From Xestospongia bergquistia (Eukaryota > Porifera > Demospongiae > Haplosclerida > Petrosiidae): DNA of 64,000 nt. Where the stretch lies: contig OZ014411.1 of the NCBI GenBank assembly GCA_963965975.1, positions 8,743,501-8,807,500 of the forward strand, in the 5' to 3' direction. This document shows, piece after piece, positions 10,301 to 57,698 of the stretch. Below the pieces are notes generated by a model. It was not told where the DNA came from. It was given only the letters and a program-made list of their open reading frames with translations, and ran no database searches. Each line of letters opens with the position of its first letter. Position 1 is the stretch's first letter. Position numbers and translations under genes: made by a program.

Positions 10301-13108
10301 AGGTATGTTCACACACAATTGGAACGATATGATAGAGAACCCTAAACCACATGGAAAGAGTGTCTATTTTTTAGTTGTAACATTATAAGCATTTTTTGCT
10401 TTTTTTGCTAATAGAGCAATATAAAGAAATTTTCTACTTAAGAACTGAGTTAACTAAAAGCAAAGAAAAAGTATCTGAACTTGAACAAAGTATAAAACAT
10501 GTTATGTATTTATGACAATTTGATTTTAATAATCAGTGTTGAATCAGAGTCAAGAACAACTAGAGAAGGTAGAAAAAGTCAATGTTCAGAGTCATGAAAA
10601 TGAAAGGGTGTTCACTGAAACTTTATATAATCAAGCAAAAGAACAGGAAACACTAAGAGAACAACTTGAACAATGGAGAACTAGTGCAAAAGATGGTTTA
10701 GAAATAATCAATGATTTAACTCAAACATGTGATAAACTACAATCATTTTTATTGGAAAAAGAAAGTGTTGTCACTGAAGTAGGAGTACAAACTGACAATC
10801 AAGGTATGTGTTGAATAAGTGACTAGTGAATTATATTGCAGATTATAATAATACAAGAAATGTTTAAATTACAAAATCAACTGCATCATATATACAGAAT
10901 CAAACTAACGATTATTATGACTGTGTTTTCACTTTAAAGAACAATCTGAAGAAGTTATACAATTGAGAAACATGTTAGCAAAAAGCCAAGAGGGAGTATC
11001 TGAAGTTAAACAAAGTATATTAATGTAAATGAGTTATAAATTATACAACATTAACACTCACAGTACTAGAGCAAAATCAAGAACAACTAGAAAATGATTT
11101 GAAAGTTAATATATCTGACATGGCTATACAAACCGACATTAAAGGTACAATAATGTCTCTATTTTGGGCATATTTTGAACATTGTAGATATGTTTATATT
11201 TATAAAGTGCTTATCATTTGTTTTGAGAATTAATTATATATATATATATATAACTCGGGCACATAAACTATTATAATATTAACTTATAATTATGCTGATT
11301 TGAGTATTTATCAACATGCTTCTTTTTTACCTTTTAAACTCAATGAAAAGTCAACCTAACTGATACGGCTATACAAACTGATATTAAAGGTACAATATGT
11401 CTACACTTTTGTAGATTTCAATAACATACTAAATTTTATTTTAGAATATGCTGAAAAGTTTACACAAACATCAACAGATCAACTGTTGACATCTGATCAA
11501 GGATCATCACTTGTTATTCTCTTCATTTACACATTATTTACATTAATACTGTGTCTTCCATATTTAGAACAAGACATTGCTAGTATTCGTAAGTATACAC
11601 TTTAGCACATGCATGCATTGAGTTTATGATTAATTGTTATTATTAGCACCATTACCTGGTGTGGATGTTCTTGCATCTAAAAAACTATTAGTAGTTGGTG
11701 GTCAAATGACTCAGTTACATTGGGATGATTTTGGATTGAGGATAGACATACCAGACAATGCACTTCCTTCAGGAATATTGGCTGAGATAGTAATTCGTGT
11801 TAGCACTTCTGGACCATATGTATATTCTAGTCCAGATTATTGGAAACTAGCCAGTTCAATCTACTGGATATCCAGTACTAAAGACTTTATTAATCCTATT
11901 AAACTAGGAATATGGCACAACATCAGGAAGTTCAAGAATTCATCCCAGCTTCGTTTTGTCACAGCATCAGATGAACCTCAAAATGGAAAATACACCTTCT
12001 TGAAAACTTCTAGTGACAGTTATTTTGATCCTAAAGAGTCATATGGATATACATTTTTAAACCATTTTTCAGCCATGGCTGTAGAATCAATTGAAGACCA
12101 ATTTAGCGGTTGTCTTTATCACCGATTATCAAAAGCTGACGAAGTGTGGGAGTATAGCTTTTTAATATATAAAGAATCAAGTGAAGCTGTTCATGAAATG
12201 GTAAGAGACCACTACTCATTTCTGATGCCAGACTTTATGATCTTAAACATTTACATGTACATGTATAGTTGCTGTTAAGAAATGGATACAATAGTTGGAC
12301 AAGAGATTCGTTACCAATCACTGTGGAATTTGATGATAATGACATTTCTATGGACTTAACAACACCCCAGTTTGACAAATGGAAAATTATTGCTCGTTAT
12401 CCACCTCCTAAAGTTAGCTACTCAGTTATTAGTGTATAACATTATCCATTCATTGTAGTATACTAAAAATCGTCTACAAAGTGGTGAAATTAAGAGCAAT
12501 ATGCAATTATTTGTTATATGGGAAGGAGAGTTATCACCAAAATCATCATTAATACAGTTACCATTACAAGGAGCAAAACAACCCACCAGTATTACATTTC
12601 AAACATGTCCAGGTACGTATATATTTAAAATGTATCAAATATGCTAATAAAAATTTGAATCTGTATTATTGTCATTTTTGATTTTGTAGATGATGATGTG
12701 CAGGTGAGTAAACTGACAGCAGTTGGTAATGGAGGTATGTTACTACCACATTATGTGTATAATGCATAAGATTTGGACTCTTTAGGTTCTATTACATCTA
12801 ATGTTAACAGTATGGTTGTTCATTTACAAAGTGTTACTGAGTTTTTACCTTTTTGTGTATATCTTGAAATGGACTTCTCTGATTGTCGTAAAATTGAAAC
12901 TGAGAGACAAGGAGAAGTTGAAGAACAGAAAATTGTAATGGTGCAGAAATGGCTTGAAGGAAGAGATCATAATTGGAGAGACTTTATACGACCTTTTGCA
13001 CTTTTAGGAAAATGTACTAAAGCAAAAGAATTATCAAATGATCATTCTGTGTATCATTTTGACCCAGAGGTTCTTAAAATGTGTACTAACATTAATAGTG
13101 AAAATTAA
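7323..13108 (+). CDS. multi-death-domain, coiled-coil, ZU5-UPA-death domain protein
   Basis: Twenty exons joined in phase give 1198 aa: 7323-7761, 7953-8234, 8288-8326, 8798-9088, 9139-9429, 9649-9723, 9776-9886, 10106-10180, 10231-10302, 10415-10489, 10537-10803, 10940-11014, 11064-11144, 11351-11389, 11445-11588, 11647-12200, 12269-12433, 12459-12612, 12690-12734, 12786-13108. After a Gly/Arg-rich start come four death-fold-like domains, each ending in an exon (pattern L..W...LP.LTWDDLVRALHRMG, then helix). Next is a coiled coil of repeated cassettes, a hydrophobic stretch LVILFIYTLFTLILCL (possible membrane helix), a ZU5 domain (GGQMTQLHWDDFGLRIDIP, then SGPYVYSSPDYWKLAS), a UPA domain and a final death domain. 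ZU5-UPA-DD is the regulatory block of UNC5/PIDD-type proteins; four extra N-terminal death folds make this architecture unusual. Every intron up to the ZU5 exon is phase 1. The ATG at 7323 is the first in frame. Likely a signalling scaffold; ligand and partners unknown. AATAAA follows at about 13135. Confidence 0.8.
9776..11389 (+). repeat. array of alternating coiled-coil exon cassettes (A/B)
   Basis: Within the death-domain gene, 75-nt A exons (10106, 10415, 10940; each encoding E-x-S/Y-E/K-x2-x-LRxxL...S-EVEQ) alternate with B exons (10231, 10537, 11064, 11351; starting MLEQ or MLNQ and ending in IQTDNE/VQTDNQ/IQTDIK). All begin and end in phase 1 and have lengths divisible by three (72, 75, 81, 267, 39), so any can be skipped or added without changing frame. 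This is tandem duplication of an exon pair. Confidence 0.75.
12434..12458 (+). other. 25-nt intron in the complete paralogue
   Basis: GTATAACATT...CATTGTAG. Upstream exon 12269-12433 is 55 whole codons and downstream exon 12459-12612 opens in phase 0 with YTKNRLQSGEIK. Read through, the frame ends at TAA 12437-12439. The other introns of this gene are about 50 nt or longer. Confidence 0.6.
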
Positions 13109-24800: not shown

Positions 24801-27800
24801 CTAACACATAATTTTATTATTTTGTTACAATTTATAATTAAATAAAACATTTCTTATTTTCAACAGATCTTCCATATTTAGTTACCAAATGTCACACAGT
24901 TAACGATCATCGTATTGTCTTCAAAGAAATATCTTCTCAAAACCCTAACAATCTAACATCTGATACACAAAATGGCTCAATGTCACAGGACTTTCAAAAG
25001 TCCACTGCAATGGATATACCAAGGAATCGTAAAGATAGTTTGCTTCATATTAAAAACCTTCCAGAAGACGCACATTCTTTGTCAATTAAAACCAATTTTA
25101 AAGAATTATTTCAAGAAGGTGGACACACTATGACAGAATTCATACATGTACAACATGACAATGTTGCATATATCAAGTTTAAAGATGAAAACTGTAAGTC
25201 TGTTTTTTACTATATGGTATATACTTTGCAATCAAGTTCAATTAGCTTATTCCCAGTCATGTTTTGGTGTCTCAACCAGTTATGGTGCATGTGGGTTTGA
25301 CCATTCTTCTCCCATATCTTCATTAAAGAGCAAATAGTAGCTGTAATGCCATTGTAGTATGTACTGTAGTCTATAGAACACAATTTAAACCTTGCTTGTT
25401 GAGATATGATAAAAAGCAATGACAACTGTATGCATATATGCAATTCTTTATCGTTTGCATTGCATTAGTAATAATTTTTTTTTTTAATAAACTTTTGGTG
25501 AATTTTATTTTAATTAATAAGTTGATTTGAACCTCATAATGATACATTTTAAAAACACTGTATTGTTATCACATTTGTGTTATCTTATCATTTTAGCAAT
25601 ACCTCAATTACTTGCTAGTCCACCTGATGATAGTACACTACTTGGACATCCAATTAAGTATTCTATTATTGAGGAATCAAAGGTCAAAACACCTAATGAT
25701 CATGTGTTAGTTGTGGATGGGCTCCCTTCTCACATCAGCAATATTGATCAATATCTTTGTGTATATCTGAAGAATACAACAAAGGTTTTATCAATTAAAT
25801 CCTGCAAGGTTGTACAACAGAAGGCTTTTGTTGAATACGAGAGTCCTGAAGGTCAATATCCTTATATATTTACTAAGTACACACACATAGGCTATAGATA
25901 TATTACTACTGATTATATCGGGATCAAGGTTGCAAGTTTTAAAAATAAGTGAACTGGCACTATTACAAGAGTCATTTATGAAAATAGTATGTAGTCTGAT
26001 GTTGCTTTAGATGTGTGTCAGGTGTATATTGGTTGGCCATTTAATTTGTTACACAAACAGTAAAGATAAACTGGTTGGTTGGTTAAACTAATTTAACCAT
26101 ATCATGTAATATAGTACATCAATTCTTTTTTTAGATGTTCAAAACATCATACAGTCGCCACCTCTAGTTCCATTTTTTCAGAAGATTCTACAGTTTACAC
26201 AGTCAACTAAATGTTTTTTAACCGAACCTGAGAATGTTACAATAGCTGGAAATGGAATACTAGAATTGGTCATTGCAGACAACTTACCACCACCATTATC
26301 AGGTTTGTGCATAATAACAACTAAATTATCAACTATGTATACATAGTTGATAATATCCAAATTGGCTCTGCAAGTTCAGACGCCACATGATTCATGCTTA
26401 TGTCAATTGCAAAGAAATGTAGGATGTTTTCCTGATAATGTCATTTAGTTGCCTCTCAAATTTTTTGTTGTAATATGGTTCAGGTTTGCAAAAGTTGGTA
26501 TTACAAAAATTTAAAATAGTGAGGGTTTACTGTATTAAAGTTTGTAACATATCATAACATTATAATAAAAGTTAAAATGATTTGTATTGAAAAGCTTAAT
26601 ACTAATATTTTAACACATATTCTTTTGGAACATGTTTTACTTCTTTGTACTGAATCAATTGCTAGACCAATTAGTGGCTGTAAATAAATTACTGCTTAAT
26701 TCCTTAACAGAAGTACTGTTAGATCAGTAACAGGAGACTGTTTTTAAGCTTCTACAATATATTTAGAGTTACAAAGAAATAGTCAGTAATGGATGTATTC
26801 TTTCTTTTTCAAAACAGAAACTGAAGATCAACTCATTGTTAACCAAGAGAAGTGGCAACTAATTATGAAACATCGAGCTGCTACAACAATTAGCATAATT
26901 GAATCTGAAGCTTTAAAAATGAAAGTCAAATTGACTTATCCAAATGCTGATAATTCAAGTGACGTTATTTGTATTTGTGGTGATGAAACATCAGTACAGC
27001 ACATTAAAAGACAGTTATCAGAGTTATTAGATAAGGTTTTTATCACAGATTTCACAGTAAGTCCGCTTAATCTACATGAACTTGTTATGGATGGAACCAT
27101 TAAAGCAGAATGCCAACAACTGGAAGAAAAGCATAAAACATTTATTAGTTACGACACCAATGAGCTGCCCAGTAGGTCTGAAAATGATCCCACTACACCT
27201 CGTTTACTTGTCAAGGCGACATCTCCTGTAGGGTCAAGGGTCACTGTATATAGTGGCAATACTTTCACTTATGTGAAATGTGATGCTATTGCCTGTTTTA
27301 TTTCTACTACACCTAGTGCTGAAGATCCTGTGCTACTATCCCTTATGTCTGCTGGTGGATCAGAGTTACAACATGAGATAAGCAGTTATTTACACTCAAA
27401 ATCCAAATTGTTGCCTGCCACTCTTCATAGAATTTCAACTGTTGGATCATTAAAGTGTAGAGATGTCTATCTCATAGTACTACCCTGTTATAACGATGAT
27501 CCAAAAAACCTCATTGCCAAGCCTCAATCAAGCCTAGAAACAGCTATCAATGAGCTCATTACTCAGTCTATTGTGTATGGTACTGACATTGTTATTGCGC
27601 CCATTTCCTGTGCTCCTCTCAACTATCCAACCGAACTTGTTGCTGAAGTTCTTATTCAAGTCCTGACTGGCCGTAGTAGTAAAACTGACAATGACTTAAA
27701 TTTTAGCATTTTTGTTGAAAGCTCATCTTGCAAGGCAATTTTTGAATCAAAGATGAGAGAATATGGTTATCATACATATCATCAGTACTTACCTCATCTT

Positions 27801-30800
27801 TCTCAGTCTCCAAGTGAGCTGTCTTTTTCAGTTACTGTTGAACAATTAAAGAAAAGTGTAAAGATTACACAAGGTGACATGATGTCAATTGGGGTAAGGA
27901 TACTAACGTAAATAAGCTAGACATCAAACTAATGATACTCTCTTAAGACTATATACCATATAGCAGGAAATTTTTACTATTTTGGAGGGTTTTTTAAAAA
28001 TACTGCAAAATTTAATGCCATGAAAGTTTTCAACCATGTATCTATCAACAAGTGCTTTGTTGCAAGCAAAACTATGAAAATTTCTTGCTATTCAGTAGGT
28101 TCCTTTTGTGTTAATGTAAGATGTATAACAATAGTATGATTACACTAATTTATAGTGATAATAACCAGTCTATAAAACACAAAAATTAAAGGATTATGTA
28201 CTAAAAACATCTTTTCTACACAGGCTGATGTTTATATCAACTCAACTAATCCAGAATTTGATCTCTCCAAAGGAGTACTTTCTCAAAAATTTAAGCAATT
28301 ATGTGGTCGAAAACTGGTTGATGAAGCTCGTGAATATATTCGAAAATCAGGAAAGCTAAAGCCTGGTCAAGTAGCAGTGACATCAGCAAACAACACTAAA
28401 GCAAAATGTATTTTTCATGTAGCTCTATTAAGGTATATTGAAGAAGATTCTTTAAAAGTAAGTGTTATCAAAACGTATGTTGAACTGTTCCTTATTCAAA
28501 TACATAGTCAATTGACCTGTACATTTATTTATAATGATTTCTATGTAGTAAAATTAAATTTTGATAAAGTGTATCAATAGCAGCTCCCATGCTCATTAGG
28601 TCAGAAGTCAAATATAGCACAATTTTAAACCTTGTTTGTTGCTATTTTCAATATAGTATATGGTATAAAGGAGTAAGTACTTGTGAACTACCTATGTTTA
28701 AAGATAAATTTCTGATAAATATTGTCTAAACTTGAACAATTAAATCAGATAAAATTATCACCAAATGCTTTCATAATTAGTCAATAAATGAATCAAACCT
28801 GAGTGCACTTTAGTAATTGTTCATCATGTTTAAGAACTTGTCCTATAATATTGCAGAATGGTATTAACCAATGATTGTTTAACACATAAGTGATACATTT
28901 TATGTTAATACACTGGTATGTAATTACATAACATTAATTTAATAGTAATATGCTGTATGTGTGTGTGTGTGTGTGTGTATATACACATATATATTTACAT
29001 GTACTTGTTATATACTCGAGTTTGCTCTTTTTTGACAATAATGCTCATAGACATAATCAAATTTGAAACTGTAACAACATAGGCACATTAAAAATTATTT
29101 CTAATTTTTTCTTTGCAGACTTTTAGAGAAACTGTTAAAACAATTTTTCAAAAGACCAGAGAATATGGCTATAGGTCCATAAGTATTCCATGCCTTGGTT
29201 CAGTTGGACTTGGATACCCAGCTTCAGAGACGGCTAAAATTGTTTTTGAGGAAATTATCACTTTTTTATCTGAGAATCCTCAAACAATCATGCATTTTCA
29301 TATTATTGTGTTTCGAACCTCAGATTTTAATGCTTATGCCAAAGAGTTTGATTGTAGTCTAAAGACACAAGACTTCATTGAACTAGTCAAAAAACATTTA
29401 AATCCCAAGTTATACAAGGTTCAAGACAAAATGCGCTTAGAAGACTGTGGTTCTGGAAAACTGACAAGAAATCACTTAATTGTCAAGTTGTGTAATGGTA
29501 GTATAATTGACGAGGAGACTAATGTCATTGTTACAAATACATCTGATGATATGAAAACTGATTCTAAAAAAATTAGTAAAGCAGTTTATGATGCTGCTGG
29601 TCAGCAATTCAAGAAGTCTCTTTTAGCCGATAGTGCAAAGTTTGTTAAAGGCTTAGTTATTCCAATAAATGCCTGTGGAGCATTAAGGTGTAACAAAGTT
29701 TACCATGTACGATTGCCAGGAAAAATGAAAGGGATTCCTCCCAATCAAACACAAAGATGCTTTTTTGAAGATTATATTTATAAATGTCTTCTACTGGCTG
29801 AAAATGAAAAGCAAAAGTCTATATCCTTCCCTGCATTTTGTGTGGGTAGTGGTAATTATAGTATACCAGAGTCAGCAGAACCAACCTTTAATGCAATACG
29901 AAAGTTTACCACAGTTAATCCAATGCATTTGAAAGAAGTTCATATTGTTATTGCTGATCAAGAAATATACGAAGCATTTTATTTTCATTTTCTCCACACC
30001 TTTCCATCATCTGTTGAGAAAAGCAATGAATTGAGTGTTTCTTTAAGATTACAGTCAAATATATTACCTCGTTTTCCAGAACATCTTTGTAAGACACCCA
30101 ATTTAAGAGAGTGCAAACTTAGTTTTAGGATTGTTGCTTTCAACGAAAGGAAGCTAATTGAAGCTAAGAGAGAGTTAATTGCTTCTATTAACAAACAAAT
30201 TGTTGACGATATGGTAGATCTTGGTGAAACAGCTTTTCTTCTCAATGAATCTGATATTGATGAGATCATAGAGTTAGCAGAAAAACATAATATTGATGTC
30301 AAATTCCAACAAAGTCTAAACAGAGTATTGGTATCTGGAGTAGAGACTTCTGTTAAAAATGTGTGTCAACAAATACAGAAAAAAGTGAATGAGCTCTCTC
30401 ATGTGGCAAATGAGTTACGTCCCTATGAATGGTCTTCAAAACATGAGGATGGTACAATAGCAATTTATACTCTTGATGTAACAATGCAGTTAGAACTTGC
30501 ATACAAGAGAGAGCAAAGCAAAGTTCAAGTTGTAATTGATGGCATTCAATGCACTATTGATCTCAAGGCCATGGAAGAACGTCGTGATGATGGGGTTATA
30601 AGGACAATTAAGAGAAATGTGAAGATAGAAGGTATGTAACATCAATTTAATACTTTTAATAGTAGTGGCTATGTGTTGAGCAAAAATTAATACAGTACTG
30701 TTGATGTTTAGGTTTCTTAAAAATGTAGATCAGTTTCATACATGCTGCTATTACTGGACAATTATAATATTTTATAGACTAATAATTATGAAAACTGCTA

Positions 30801-32597
30801 ACCTCATCTTATATTGAAATGTATTTATTATATTGGTAGTACTAATAACCACAAAGATAGCAGGTAGTAGTAGATGGTTGGAGTTTGATGTATAATTTTC
30901 AATTTACTTATTTTCATCTCTTAGATTTTCCACGAGACTGGGATTATGATGCAATGATGTCTAAGGTTGTCCATTATGCTGACATTTCCACTAAATCAAG
31001 CGAATATAAAAAAGCTACTGCATTATTCCTTGAAACTTTAGGGGAATCTTGTCACAATTATGAGATAGTTAAAGTGCATCGAATACAGAATCTTGGAGAA
31101 TATACAAGATACCAGAGTGTAAAAAGGACTTGGTTAAGATATGGTAATGTCAAAGAGAAAGAGCTTTTTCATGGCACAAAGAAAGATAACATTGAATCAA
31201 TATGTTCCACTGGTTTTAACAGAAGTTTTGCTGCTGAATCTAATGGTAAGATAAGCATTATGCCAGTACTATTGTTAACTGTCCTCTTCTTATTAGCTGC
31301 CAATTTTGGTAAAGGGGTTTATTTTGCTTTAAATTCATGGTACTCTCTTCAAGATAATTACTCAACTATAGACTCTGATGGCTACAAACATATTTTAGTG
31401 TGCTCTGTACTTGTTTGTAATGTAACTCGTGGAAAAAGTGACATGAAAGTGCCACCTCCTCTAAATGATAACCCCCAGGTAAGTAATATGCATGGATTGT
31501 AGTTTTGGTAACAATATTATTATAAAGTTAATGGTTGAAATCTTACTATCTTATTATCTTACTAGTTTTGGAAAATAGTCTGTTTATATGCTGCTTTTGT
31601 TTATAATTAAACTCAAAATTAAAATTATAAGCTTAACAAGATTGTCCTGTGATGCTATTGCCATAGTAACATCCTTGTGTTTAATGATGGAATAATTGAC
31701 AGAAACTGTGGAGCAACTGAATCCAATAAATAAAGGAGCAAGCTATACCTAGAAGTTTGATAGCATGTCAGTTACAATAGCTAGAAGAAAGAAGGAAATT
31801 AGCAAGACTATGAAAAGTGTCAAAGATGGTTACACCTATTCTGATTGTGCTCACTATGAAGGATAATTAATTAATTAGTAATTAAATATTTGTCAGTGGT
31901 TAAAAAATCCACTTTAATCTCATTCAATTAACAATAAAAGTGTAGAATGAAGCTTTTAATTACTGCCTGGAAAGCTTTGCATGCCGGTTAAATTTTATTT
32001 AAATGAACAATGTTTTGACCTGAAAGGCCTTCATTGGGCATATAAAGGAATTATGTAGTTGACCTCCTTACAATAGTCTGATGTTGAGACTTTTTAAATG
32101 TTATTGAGATGTGTTGGCTAAGTCAATCCTCAAATATGAAATCACAGTGCTGTATTATCTTCATTTCTCTGACTTAACTCAGTGTTGTGCACTGACCATT
32201 GTTGTAATTTTTCACATAAAATCATTGTGTTTACAGTGTGTTTACACTTCAGTTTCATTTTGTTTGTCACTTAACTGACACATAAAGTTATAGGATAAAG
32301 TGTTAAAAACAGACAAAATAAATACATAGTTAGCATGAGGATCTGGCAAGCATTATGTACCAAGTAATAACGAAACTGTGGCTTCATTTGTTATCATTGA
32401 AATATGGCATAAATCTTTGGACTGCAAAAATATTTGTAGCTACAGGTTGAACAATAATAAAAACAGCTACTATCTTCTTTTAATTTCTCTAGATCCTATA
32501 TGACACTCTAGTTGATGATGAATCTAATCCTACTATATTCGTAGCTATGAGAGATTCACAAGCTTATCCAAACTATTGGATAACAGTGAAAATGTGA
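21808..32597 (+). CDS. PARP14-like macro-domain mono-ADP-ribosyltransferase
   Basis: Eleven exons in phase give 1528 aa: 21808-21985, 23586-23813, 24867-25193, 25597-25851, 26135-26302, 26818-27893, 28224-28457, 29119-30631, 30925-31245, 31297-31478, 32493-32597. N-terminal half: several RRM-like segments (for example LLHIKNLPEDAHSLSIKTNF and HVLVVDGLPSHISN). Then three macro domains: the first degenerate (about residues 500-660); the second with INSTNPEF and PCLGSVGLGYPASETA, closest to ADP-ribose-binding consensus; the third partly degenerate. A KH-like stretch, a WWE domain (YEWSSKHEDGTIAIYTLD) and a PARP catalytic domain (LFHGTK, GKGVYFALNSWYS, NPTIFVAMRD, QAYPNYWITV) follow. The triad reads His-Tyr-Ile, as in mono-ADP-ribosylating PARP10/14/15 enzymes, not the Glu of poly-ADP-ribosylating ones. 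Vertebrate relatives act in interferon and antiviral responses; here that is inference. Introns carry a MITE and palindromes. AATAAA lies near 32742. Confidence 0.88.
22609..22623 (+). repeat. G15 homopolymer in PARP intron 1
   Basis: Fifteen consecutive G, part of a G-rich run GGAGG...GGGAGGG; the complementary C-rich tract CCTCCCC follows about 20 nt later. Could fold or form a G-quadruplex in the transcript. Confidence 0.9.
22967..23002. repeat. 13-bp perfect inverted repeat, 10-nt loop
   Basis: ATTGTAATAACTC (22967-22979) and GAGTTATTACAAT (22990-23002) flank CACGACAAAA within PARP intron 1. Possibly the core of a small foldback element; no other feature is attached. Confidence 0.75.
24141..24530. 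mobile_element. MITE in PARP intron 2
   Basis: Left TGCAGAGGGACATTCCAATT and right AATTGGAATGTCCATCTGCG form imperfect terminal inverted repeats of about 25-30 bp around a non-coding interior of about 330 bp. No target-site duplication was clear. Confidence 0.6.
26325..26354. repeat. 30-bp perfect palindrome without spacer
   Basis: ATTATCAACTATGTA followed directly by its reverse complement TACATAGTTGATAAT. It lies 22 nt past the donor of PARP exon 5. Confidence 0.9.
28957..28979. repeat. (GT)n microsatellite
   Basis: About 11 GT units, continuing into TATACACATATATATTTACA, in the PARP intron before the large macro-3/WWE exon. Confidence 0.9.
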
Positions 32598-55700: not shown

Positions 55701-57698
55701 AAGAGATGTACTTACAGTTAGTAGATGTGAAACCAAGCTGTCGACAAGCTGTTCTAGCTAACATATAGATATTTTCAATATTATAATCATAATAGTCACA
55801 GAAACCATTCCATTTTCCATCATAACAAATTTCTAATCTGCCTTCATGACTGTGTTTACCATTAACAAGACGTACATCATAGTCAGTAGTACAATCGTCT
55901 GAAACAGATAAAATAGTAGATTAATGGTCATTATTAAATGAAAAGAAATATGTAATTAAATATTATAGGCTAACAATAGTGATGCATTCAAATTAATACA
56001 CAGTTTTTTCATTTCTTACCATAAGATGGTGAACAAAGTAGACTGACTGTATCTCTAACAGGATCACAGTAACCAATATTGGTTCTATAACTAGATGGAT
56101 AAGAAGAGCAATTACATAAAGATGAGTATGATGGACTACAGTAAGAGTAAGGTCCAAAACCAAACTCTGGCCATGATCCGTTATTCACATGGTAAGCTGG
56201 TCCTGCAAGTGTCAAAATTTTAATAGATATATCTAATGACAGGACAATAAGATTAATCTTACGTGTATTTGAAAAGCCAAGTTGTTTACAGGCAACTCTA
56301 GCATGGTCACATCCCCAGTCATAGTCACAAACAGCTGTCCATTTATTAGTTGAGCTACAGATTTGCAGAGTACCTCCATCAGATACAACAGTTTCTTTAG
56401 CATTATTGTAGAGTCGAAGTTCTTTGGAATTATTACATGATCCTAACATGTATAATTTGAATACAAAAAAGGTATTCAAAGGTAAGGGTCTTTAACTTGT
56501 TTAACAATGATTTAGTTTGGAAACAGCTAGATGCTGAAAAGTAATTTTTTGCTTTATGTGTTTACAACATGCAGAAATGTAAGCAGTAACAACTCCAATG
56601 ATGAAAACAACATTTCAATTTCCTGTATTATTACAATTTATGGCAACATTAGCACCTTCAATATAATTAACCATTCGACAATTACCATAGATTGAGAAAA
56701 GTTTGCGTTACAAAAGTTTTGTGTAAAAAATTAATATGTTGAAACATTTCGAAAACAATTAAATACTGTAAATATTCCTACCATAAATATTTTAATTCAT
56801 AATAATTTTAATGTGTTTATTTTTTGTACATCATCCAACATTCCAATTTTTTTCACAATGAAACATTCCTGGTCTATGGTAACAACTACATAATAGACAT
56901 ACATATATACTATCTTAATATCAACTTGTTTTCTAATAGATTAATTGTATACTGACCTGTATCAACAATACACTGTAGCTCTACTGTGTCCCTGTTTGTG
57001 TTGCAAAAATATGTGTCTGTTCTCCACCAGCTATTATAAGAGCTACAGCTAAACAATGTGGAATAGGATGGACTGCATGAAGAATATGGTCCAAATCCAT
57101 ATATTGGCCAACCACCACTGTTAACACATGTAATTGGATCTGCAGTATAATAGTACATAATAAAAAATCTATTGAATGCACATAATGTGTGATAATTAAT
57201 ATTAAAGTAATCAGCATGCATCCAATAAGTATGCAGCACTTGACACTTTTATTGATCAGTATAATTATAATTAAAATGAAATATAACATCACATGTATGA
57301 AATGTTATTGTTACTTGAATTGTTGTATCCTAGTTGTTTGCAGGCCACAATTGAGTGATAGTGAGTCCAACCATGGTCACACACAGCAGTCCATCGATTA
57401 TATGAGTCACATATCTGAAGCATGCCTTTATTTGATGTTGATGTATCATTGAAGAGACGAATGTCACCGTATTCACAGGCATCTACAAATTAAAGAAAAT
57501 CTAAGCCACATTTTAACAACACAGTTATAGCTAATAATACAAACCCATCAACCAACAACATCATTATTGTCTATGGTATTACTCCTTTTATAGCTATAAC
57601 TTAATTATTACAGATGCTTCATTGACTATACCTGCTGTGCCAAGTGTGAGATAAATTACCAAAAGAATGGCAGTTACTTTCATCATCATTGTATCCAT
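52718..57698 (-). CDS. secreted protein with five SRCR domains and a Cys-rich tail
   Basis: Seventeen exons in phase give 707 aa: 57632-57698, 57315-57482, 56957-57139, 56263-56442, 56020-56202, 55716-55898, 55394-55564, 55013-55183, 54225-54392, 53704-53859, 53484-53651, 53250-53321, 53124-53196, 53009-53055, 52935-52958, 52807-52879, 52718-52754. Exon 1 is a signal peptide (MKVTAILLVIYLTLGTA). Exons 2 to 11 encode five scavenger-receptor cysteine-rich domains, each split into an N-half exon (for example DVRLVNGTVEIEGRLEVC ... ACKQLG) and a C-half exon (for example FGRGANSGFLQFYWC ... GLRCYYG), all phase 1. A Pro/Thr linker (ETSPLPPTTPT) and a tail with about 15 Cys follow (MKGCAQVCLEKSEHC, GDCTCESC, KCFDGTCD, VCVCQYCK). 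There is no transmembrane segment, so it is probably secreted. SRCR proteins bind polyanions or microbes; sponges use many in adhesion and recognition. TATA box at 57733-57742; AATAAA at 52683-52688. Confidence 0.85.

Follow-up and report, generated by a model that had tools for sequence, protein, structure and literature searches.

The window analysed here is a stretch of 64,000 nucleotides (nt) of the sponge Xestospongia bergquistia (contig OZ014411.1; G000:C1:8743501-8807500). It holds two tandem copies of a gene with a ZU5-like and a death-domain-like exon, copy A (parts at 53-745) and copy B (11646-13108). An earlier reading made from the letters of the window (hereafter the sequence-only reading) had placed a conserved intron of exactly 25 nt in both copies, at 12434-12458 and 74-98. 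Our analysis bears out the intron itself and the position of its acceptor, but not its length. Comparison with diverged paralogues makes it very likely that the element, which we call intron gamma, is an ordinary GT-AG intron that measures 46 nt and occupies 12413-12458 in copy B and 53-98 in copy A. The donor proposed earlier would then lie 21 nt too far downstream, as judged from the place of the donor in nine of nine diverged paralogues examined.

A shared intron position in diverged paralogues

Relatives of the gene were collected by a search of the genome (146 Mb in 21 contigs). A third tandem copy lies outside the window, about 17 kb upstream of copy A (G000:C1:8726316-8726658); copies A and B and this third copy are referred to below as the trio. 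Of 210 candidate matches to the ZU5-like exon, 150 were scored; with at least 150 genomic matches, this exon belongs to a very large family. Nine diverged paralogues were examined at the intron site: four on contig C2, three on C6, one on C13 and one at 8.236 Mb on C1. The last two were found by the ZU5-like search only, whose weaker matches were left out at this site. For two of the C6 members (G000:C6:7.827-7.837 and 7.852-7.862 Mb), the match to the ZU5-like exon was confined to its end, and these genes, at 7.83 and 7.856 Mb, may be partial or degraded.

An intron in phase 0 separates the codons aligned with PPPK from those aligned with YTKN in all nine paralogues. Its lengths are 45, 45, 50, 50, 48, 45, 45, 51 and 46 nt; its donor is GTAAGA in seven cases, GTAAAA in one and GTCATT in one, and its acceptor is TAG/TAY in eight and CAG/TAC in the C13 member (a slash marks the exon-intron boundary). 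In copies A and B, exactly this position is taken by the GT that opens GTTAGC (53 and 12413, respectively). Moreover, the last exon codon is AAA in the three C6 members as it is in the window (..CTTAAA/GTAAGA compared with ..CCTAAA/GTTAGC). If this GT is the donor of the trio, then position and phase are the same in all 12 members examined, and the intron measures 46 nt in each of the three tandem copies, inside the family range of 45-51 nt. The trio would differ from the paralogues on C2, C6, C13 and C1 in the donor hexamer, GTTAGC standing where they carry GTAAGA, GTAAAA or GTCATT. Because position and phase are common to diverged members, intron gamma was probably inherited from a common ancestor of the ZU5-like/death-domain family.

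Layout of the gene copies

The features of copy B and the corresponding parts of copy A are as follows.

11646-12200, + strand: ZU5-like exon of copy B, with nine other places in the genome at 46-98% identity
12201-12268, + strand: intron beta, 68 nt, ATG/GTAAGA ... TATAG
12269-12412, + strand: exon U1, ending ...RYPPPK in phase 0; the paralogue alignment extends to the same end
12413-12458, + strand: very probable extent of intron gamma in copy B (46 nt), AAA/GTTAGC ... CATTGTAG/TAT, at the position and in the phase of the 45-51 nt introns of the nine paralogues
12413-12433, + strand: 21-nt stretch reading VSYSVIS, exon in the sequence-only reading, here the likely 5' part of intron gamma
12434-12458, + strand: the 25-nt intron of the sequence-only reading, here the likely 3' part of the 46-nt intron
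12459-12612, + strand: exon U2, starting YTKNRLQSGEIKSNMQ
12690-12734, + strand: short exon flanked by intron delta (77 nt) and intron epsilon (51 nt), containing the strong donor-like CAG/GTGAGT at 12704
12786-13108, + strand: death-domain-like exon including the stop codon; Pfam Death is found in two of the five family members scanned
53-98, + strand: very probable extent of intron gamma in copy A (46 nt), AAA/GTTAGC ... CATAATAG, of which the earlier 74-98 would be the 3' part
99-251, + strand: matched part of exon U2 in copy A, which ends one base before the donor
425-745, + strand: matched part of the death-domain-like exon in copy A, with the stop codon after it

It should be noted that the CAG/GTGAGT at 12704, present at the same site in copy A and in the third copy, scores 8.95 on the donor matrix described below, above 20 of 44 family donors. 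Joined to the next acceptor it would break the death-domain frame, and it is possibly a decoy or an alternative donor. An intron of 16 nt starting at this GTGAGT was rejected, as the stretch stays open in frame and is part of an exon in the spliced gene.

Removals that keep the reading frame

The two 25-nt strings are as the sequence-only reading described them. That at 12434-12458 (GTATAACATTATCCATTCATTGTAG) and that at 74-98, which differs from it at two bases, start with GT, end with TAG and are of equal length. The exons on either side are in phase 0, and a ribosome reading through would meet a TAA at the second codon. The same 25 nt recur in the same arrangement in the third copy. It does not follow that the removal has to be of exactly 25 nt, since a removal of 46 nt to the same acceptor keeps the frame in all three copies. 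Three donors are in frame with the acceptor at 12458, namely the GTs at 12434 (25 nt), 12425 (34 nt) and 12413 (46 nt; 53 in copy A). The second of these was rejected: it keeps the frame in two of the three copies, copy A reading AT there, and its score is -6.89. A donor at 12432 (27 nt), a GT 63 nt before the acceptor and an acceptor at 12480-12481 all break the frame and were also rejected. The equal length of the two strings had been offered as support, but copies A and B are recent tandem duplicates (positions 1-300 align with 12361-12660 at 98% identity and with no gap) and are not independent. The proposed 25-nt intron can be called conserved among recent tandem copies only.

The paralogues show how easily a second frame-keeping donor appears. 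The shared-position donor is the best-scoring in-frame GT in all nine (these donors being part of the training set of the matrix). Yet three of them, two on C2 and the one at C1:8.236 Mb, have one or two extra in-frame GTs inside the intron, preceded by sequence free of stops. These would give readings of 34-38 nt, none as low as 25 nt. The scores of the shared-position and second GT in these three are 9.85 versus 6.46, 9.85 versus 0.10 and 6.69 versus 4.84 (the chosen donors again belonging to the training set). Second in-frame GTs thus arise readily, and the length of an intron is poorly predicted by the smallest removal that keeps the frame. The paralogue at C1:8.236 Mb (G000:C1:8236684-8236729) resembles the window gene, with an unusual donor, GTCATT, and an in-frame GTAATA 12 nt downstream.

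Protein profile and intron lengths

We built a hidden Markov model from the nine paralogues alone, spliced at the shared position, and compared each of the three tandem copies with it in both spliced forms. Removal of 46 nt gave 85.1, 84.5 and 83.5 bits, compared with 74.1, 73.5 and 72.4 bits for removal of 25 nt, a loss of about 11 bits. Pairwise global alignment was better for the 46-nt version in 27 of 27 comparisons. With 46 nt removed there is no gap at the junction relative to the family, whereas with 25 nt removed an insert of seven residues (VSYSVIS; VSYSIIS in copy A) stands exactly at the shared intron position and accounts for the lost bits. From its place in the alignment, this insert looks like a piece of intron read as exon.

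Lengths were compared with those of 44 other introns from twelve genes of the family, the three disputed gamma introns and the unplaced beta intron of the C13 member being set aside. They range from 45 to 122 nt (119 nt for the epsilon intron of one C2 member, C2c) with a median of 55.5 nt, and none of the 44 is under 45 nt, although near-identical members are included and the values are not independent. An intron of 25 nt would fall 20 nt below the smallest value in this set. Kinase matches were also considered for their intron sizes and left out of the comparison. A spectrum of donor-acceptor distances over 247.5 kb is noisy: 41 pairs compared with 18 in the control fall at 40-49 nt and 17 compared with 14 at 25-29 nt, and other bins differ equally, for example 21 versus 7 at 190-194 nt. 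It only hints at a mode of intron length near 45 nt. Across the whole genome, AGGTAAGT and TTTTAG are found spaced 20-32 nt apart 84 times, many of these being identical repeat copies; the controls gave 33 (swapped order), 42 (backward pattern) and 97 (backward swapped pattern).

Selection downstream of the stop codon

That something is spliced out here at all is supported by the exons that follow the stop. Between the tandem copies, omega is 0.24-0.34 for U2 and the death-domain exon, similar to the 0.15-0.26 of the upstream exons. In the matched parts of these two downstream exons, copies A and B show 28 base differences and 11 amino-acid changes, where random placement of the differences leads one to expect 21.0. 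None of 2000 random placements was as low in amino-acid changes and 1673 of the 2000 created a stop, of which the actual copies have none. The signal comes from the death-domain exon, which holds 27 of the 28 differences; U2 alone has one to three differences per copy pair. This purifying selection implies that the downstream part is translated, and hence that splicing takes out the stop-bearing stretch in a useful fraction of the transcripts, if not in all.

The divergence of copies A and B is uneven, with 27 differences in 321 bases of the death-domain exon (425-745 compared with 12785-13105), one in 153 of U2 and eight in 555 of the ZU5-like exon. This is the kind of pattern that gene conversion in the upstream part would leave.

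Splice-site strength and branch site

The splice signals themselves weigh against a 46-nt intron, and are mildly in favour of the 25-nt donor. A matrix trained on 44 family donors gives GTTAGC (46 nt) -0.01 and GTATAA (25 nt) 3.19, the higher score thus going to the latter, and the order is kept when duplicate donor strings are removed (1.14 and 2.36, respectively). None of the 44 family donors has a T at position +3 (four have a C). The shared-position site scores 5.0-9.85 in the relatives, whereas the GTTAGC of the trio lies under all 44 donors and, contrary to the nine paralogues, is not the best in-frame GT. Free pairing with U1 gives duplex energies of -1.6 kcal/mol for the 46-nt donor and -2.8 kcal/mol for the 25-nt donor. 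As far as the profile test alone goes, the 21 nt may have become exon recently. On the other hand, GTATAA is also below every training donor (minimum 4.26), and in fixed register the 46-nt donor matches the consensus CAG/GTAAGT at five of nine positions and the 25-nt donor at three. The pairing and consensus scores use the letters of the U1 5' end and this consensus.

A possible branch site is GTATAAC (12434-12440, with its A at 12439), formed by the same bases as the donor of the sequence-only reading; against it, only four of its seven bases match TACTAAC and a better match is found elsewhere in the intron. The A at 12439 is 19 nt from the acceptor, and would be 26 nt from the donor of a 46-nt intron and 5 nt from that of a 25-nt intron. 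An intron of 25 nt would probably offer little room for a branch site.

We nevertheless prefer 46 nt in spite of the donor scores, because the shared position in nine of nine paralogues, the gap-free junction and the family range of lengths weigh more. A weak donor would also not be unusual in an intron of this size. According to PMC4463651, splicing occurs at human introns as short as 43, 49 and 56 nt, and among 22 ultra-short introns listed there not one has strong signals at all three sites. Weak splice sites are common among human ultra-short introns (<66 nt), as in the window intron; the human set differs in that 12 of the 15 supported introns are G-rich, whereas the window intron is AT-rich.

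Alternative explanations

An intron of 25 nt would result if the ancestral donor had decayed in the trio and splicing had moved 21 nt downstream, with a gain of seven residues. The slight preference of the matrix and of free U1 pairing for GTATAA speaks for this, as does the fact that the 21 nt are open and in frame in all three copies. Moreover, such a length has animal precedents: dicyemid introns have a mean of 26.2 nt (n = 16; PMC2222250) and a median of 27 nt in a genome survey (PMC6543705), the very size proposed for the window, so that 25 nt is less exceptional among animals than the sequence-only reading held. Within this family it would be exceptional, however: in dicyemids short introns are the rule of the genome, whereas here none of 44 is under 45 nt. 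The shift would also have to account for the insert and its cost in bits, for a new donor that is itself below every training donor, and for a presumably cramped branch site. We therefore regard it as quite improbable. It also seems to us unlikely that the trio is undergoing, or has completed, a reduction of this intron from 46 to 25 nt in which the donor moves 21 nt downstream and intron sequence becomes seven new codons.

Use of both donors, giving two in-frame isoforms seven residues apart, would suit the arrangement of all three copies, in which two weak donors share a frame and are separated by 21 nt. The introns of the sponge Amphimedon are described as markedly small (average 327 bp), and alternative donors make up 12.7% of its alternative-splicing events (PMC4432959). 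The arguments from length hold for a minor 25-nt form as well, and the in-frame second GTs of three of the nine paralogues, which have better primary donors, indicate that such a site needs no function; we give this explanation very little credence. Least of all do we expect the stretch to be usually retained, leaving a short protein that ends at the TAA at 12437-12439. The donors are weak, and retention is described in PMC4432959 as frequent and as the commonest alternative splicing in Amphimedon, but the constraint on U2 and the death-domain exon past the stop (omega and amino-acid changes, above) speaks strongly for their translation.

Domain identity and other features of the window

The label 'death domain' given by the sequence-only reading has support at the level of the family, with Pfam Death in the two members mentioned (best E value 7.7e-06); the window protein has no Death match. 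In a profile search of the PDB, Fas death domains were the best match (E value 0.0031). The label 'UPA' was not recovered: PF17217 had no match in the five members or in the genome, where the search controls gave no match either. Pfam ZU5 is found in one of the five members scanned (E value 0.015), and the ZU5-like exon of copy B has homologues in the genome whose PF00791 matches exceed the cut-off. Weaker matches of the ZU5-like search overlap Pfam ZU5 matches; C3:3558341-3558757, for example, overlaps the one at C3:3558485-3558709.

Elsewhere in the window, a PARP14-like gene has exons at 24842-31502, where Pfam recognises macro and WWE domains, and an SRCR-domain exon (Pfam) lies at 56009-56491 on the - strand, in a stretch (50-61 kb) with several direct repeats of 100-300 nt.

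Proposed history and significance

For the preferred 46-nt intron, we propose that the donor inherited with intron gamma changed to GTTAGC before the trio arose from its common ancestor, and that the normal spliceosome would still remove the 46-nt intron from this weak site. Its first 21 nt, presumably by chance, are free of stops and end before another in-frame GT, which is why a 25-nt intron looked possible. Should the downstream donor be in use after all, a 25-nt intron would exist in animal genes whose other placed introns are all at least 45 nt long, and a true 25-nt junction would make of the trio and its nine longer-intron paralogues a clean natural series on the minimum intron size of a normal animal spliceosome. 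The 46-nt intron, if it holds, removes a claimed record-small animal intron and would have little wider importance. It does carry a warning, namely that the smallest frame-keeping removal seen in one gene is not the length of its intron.
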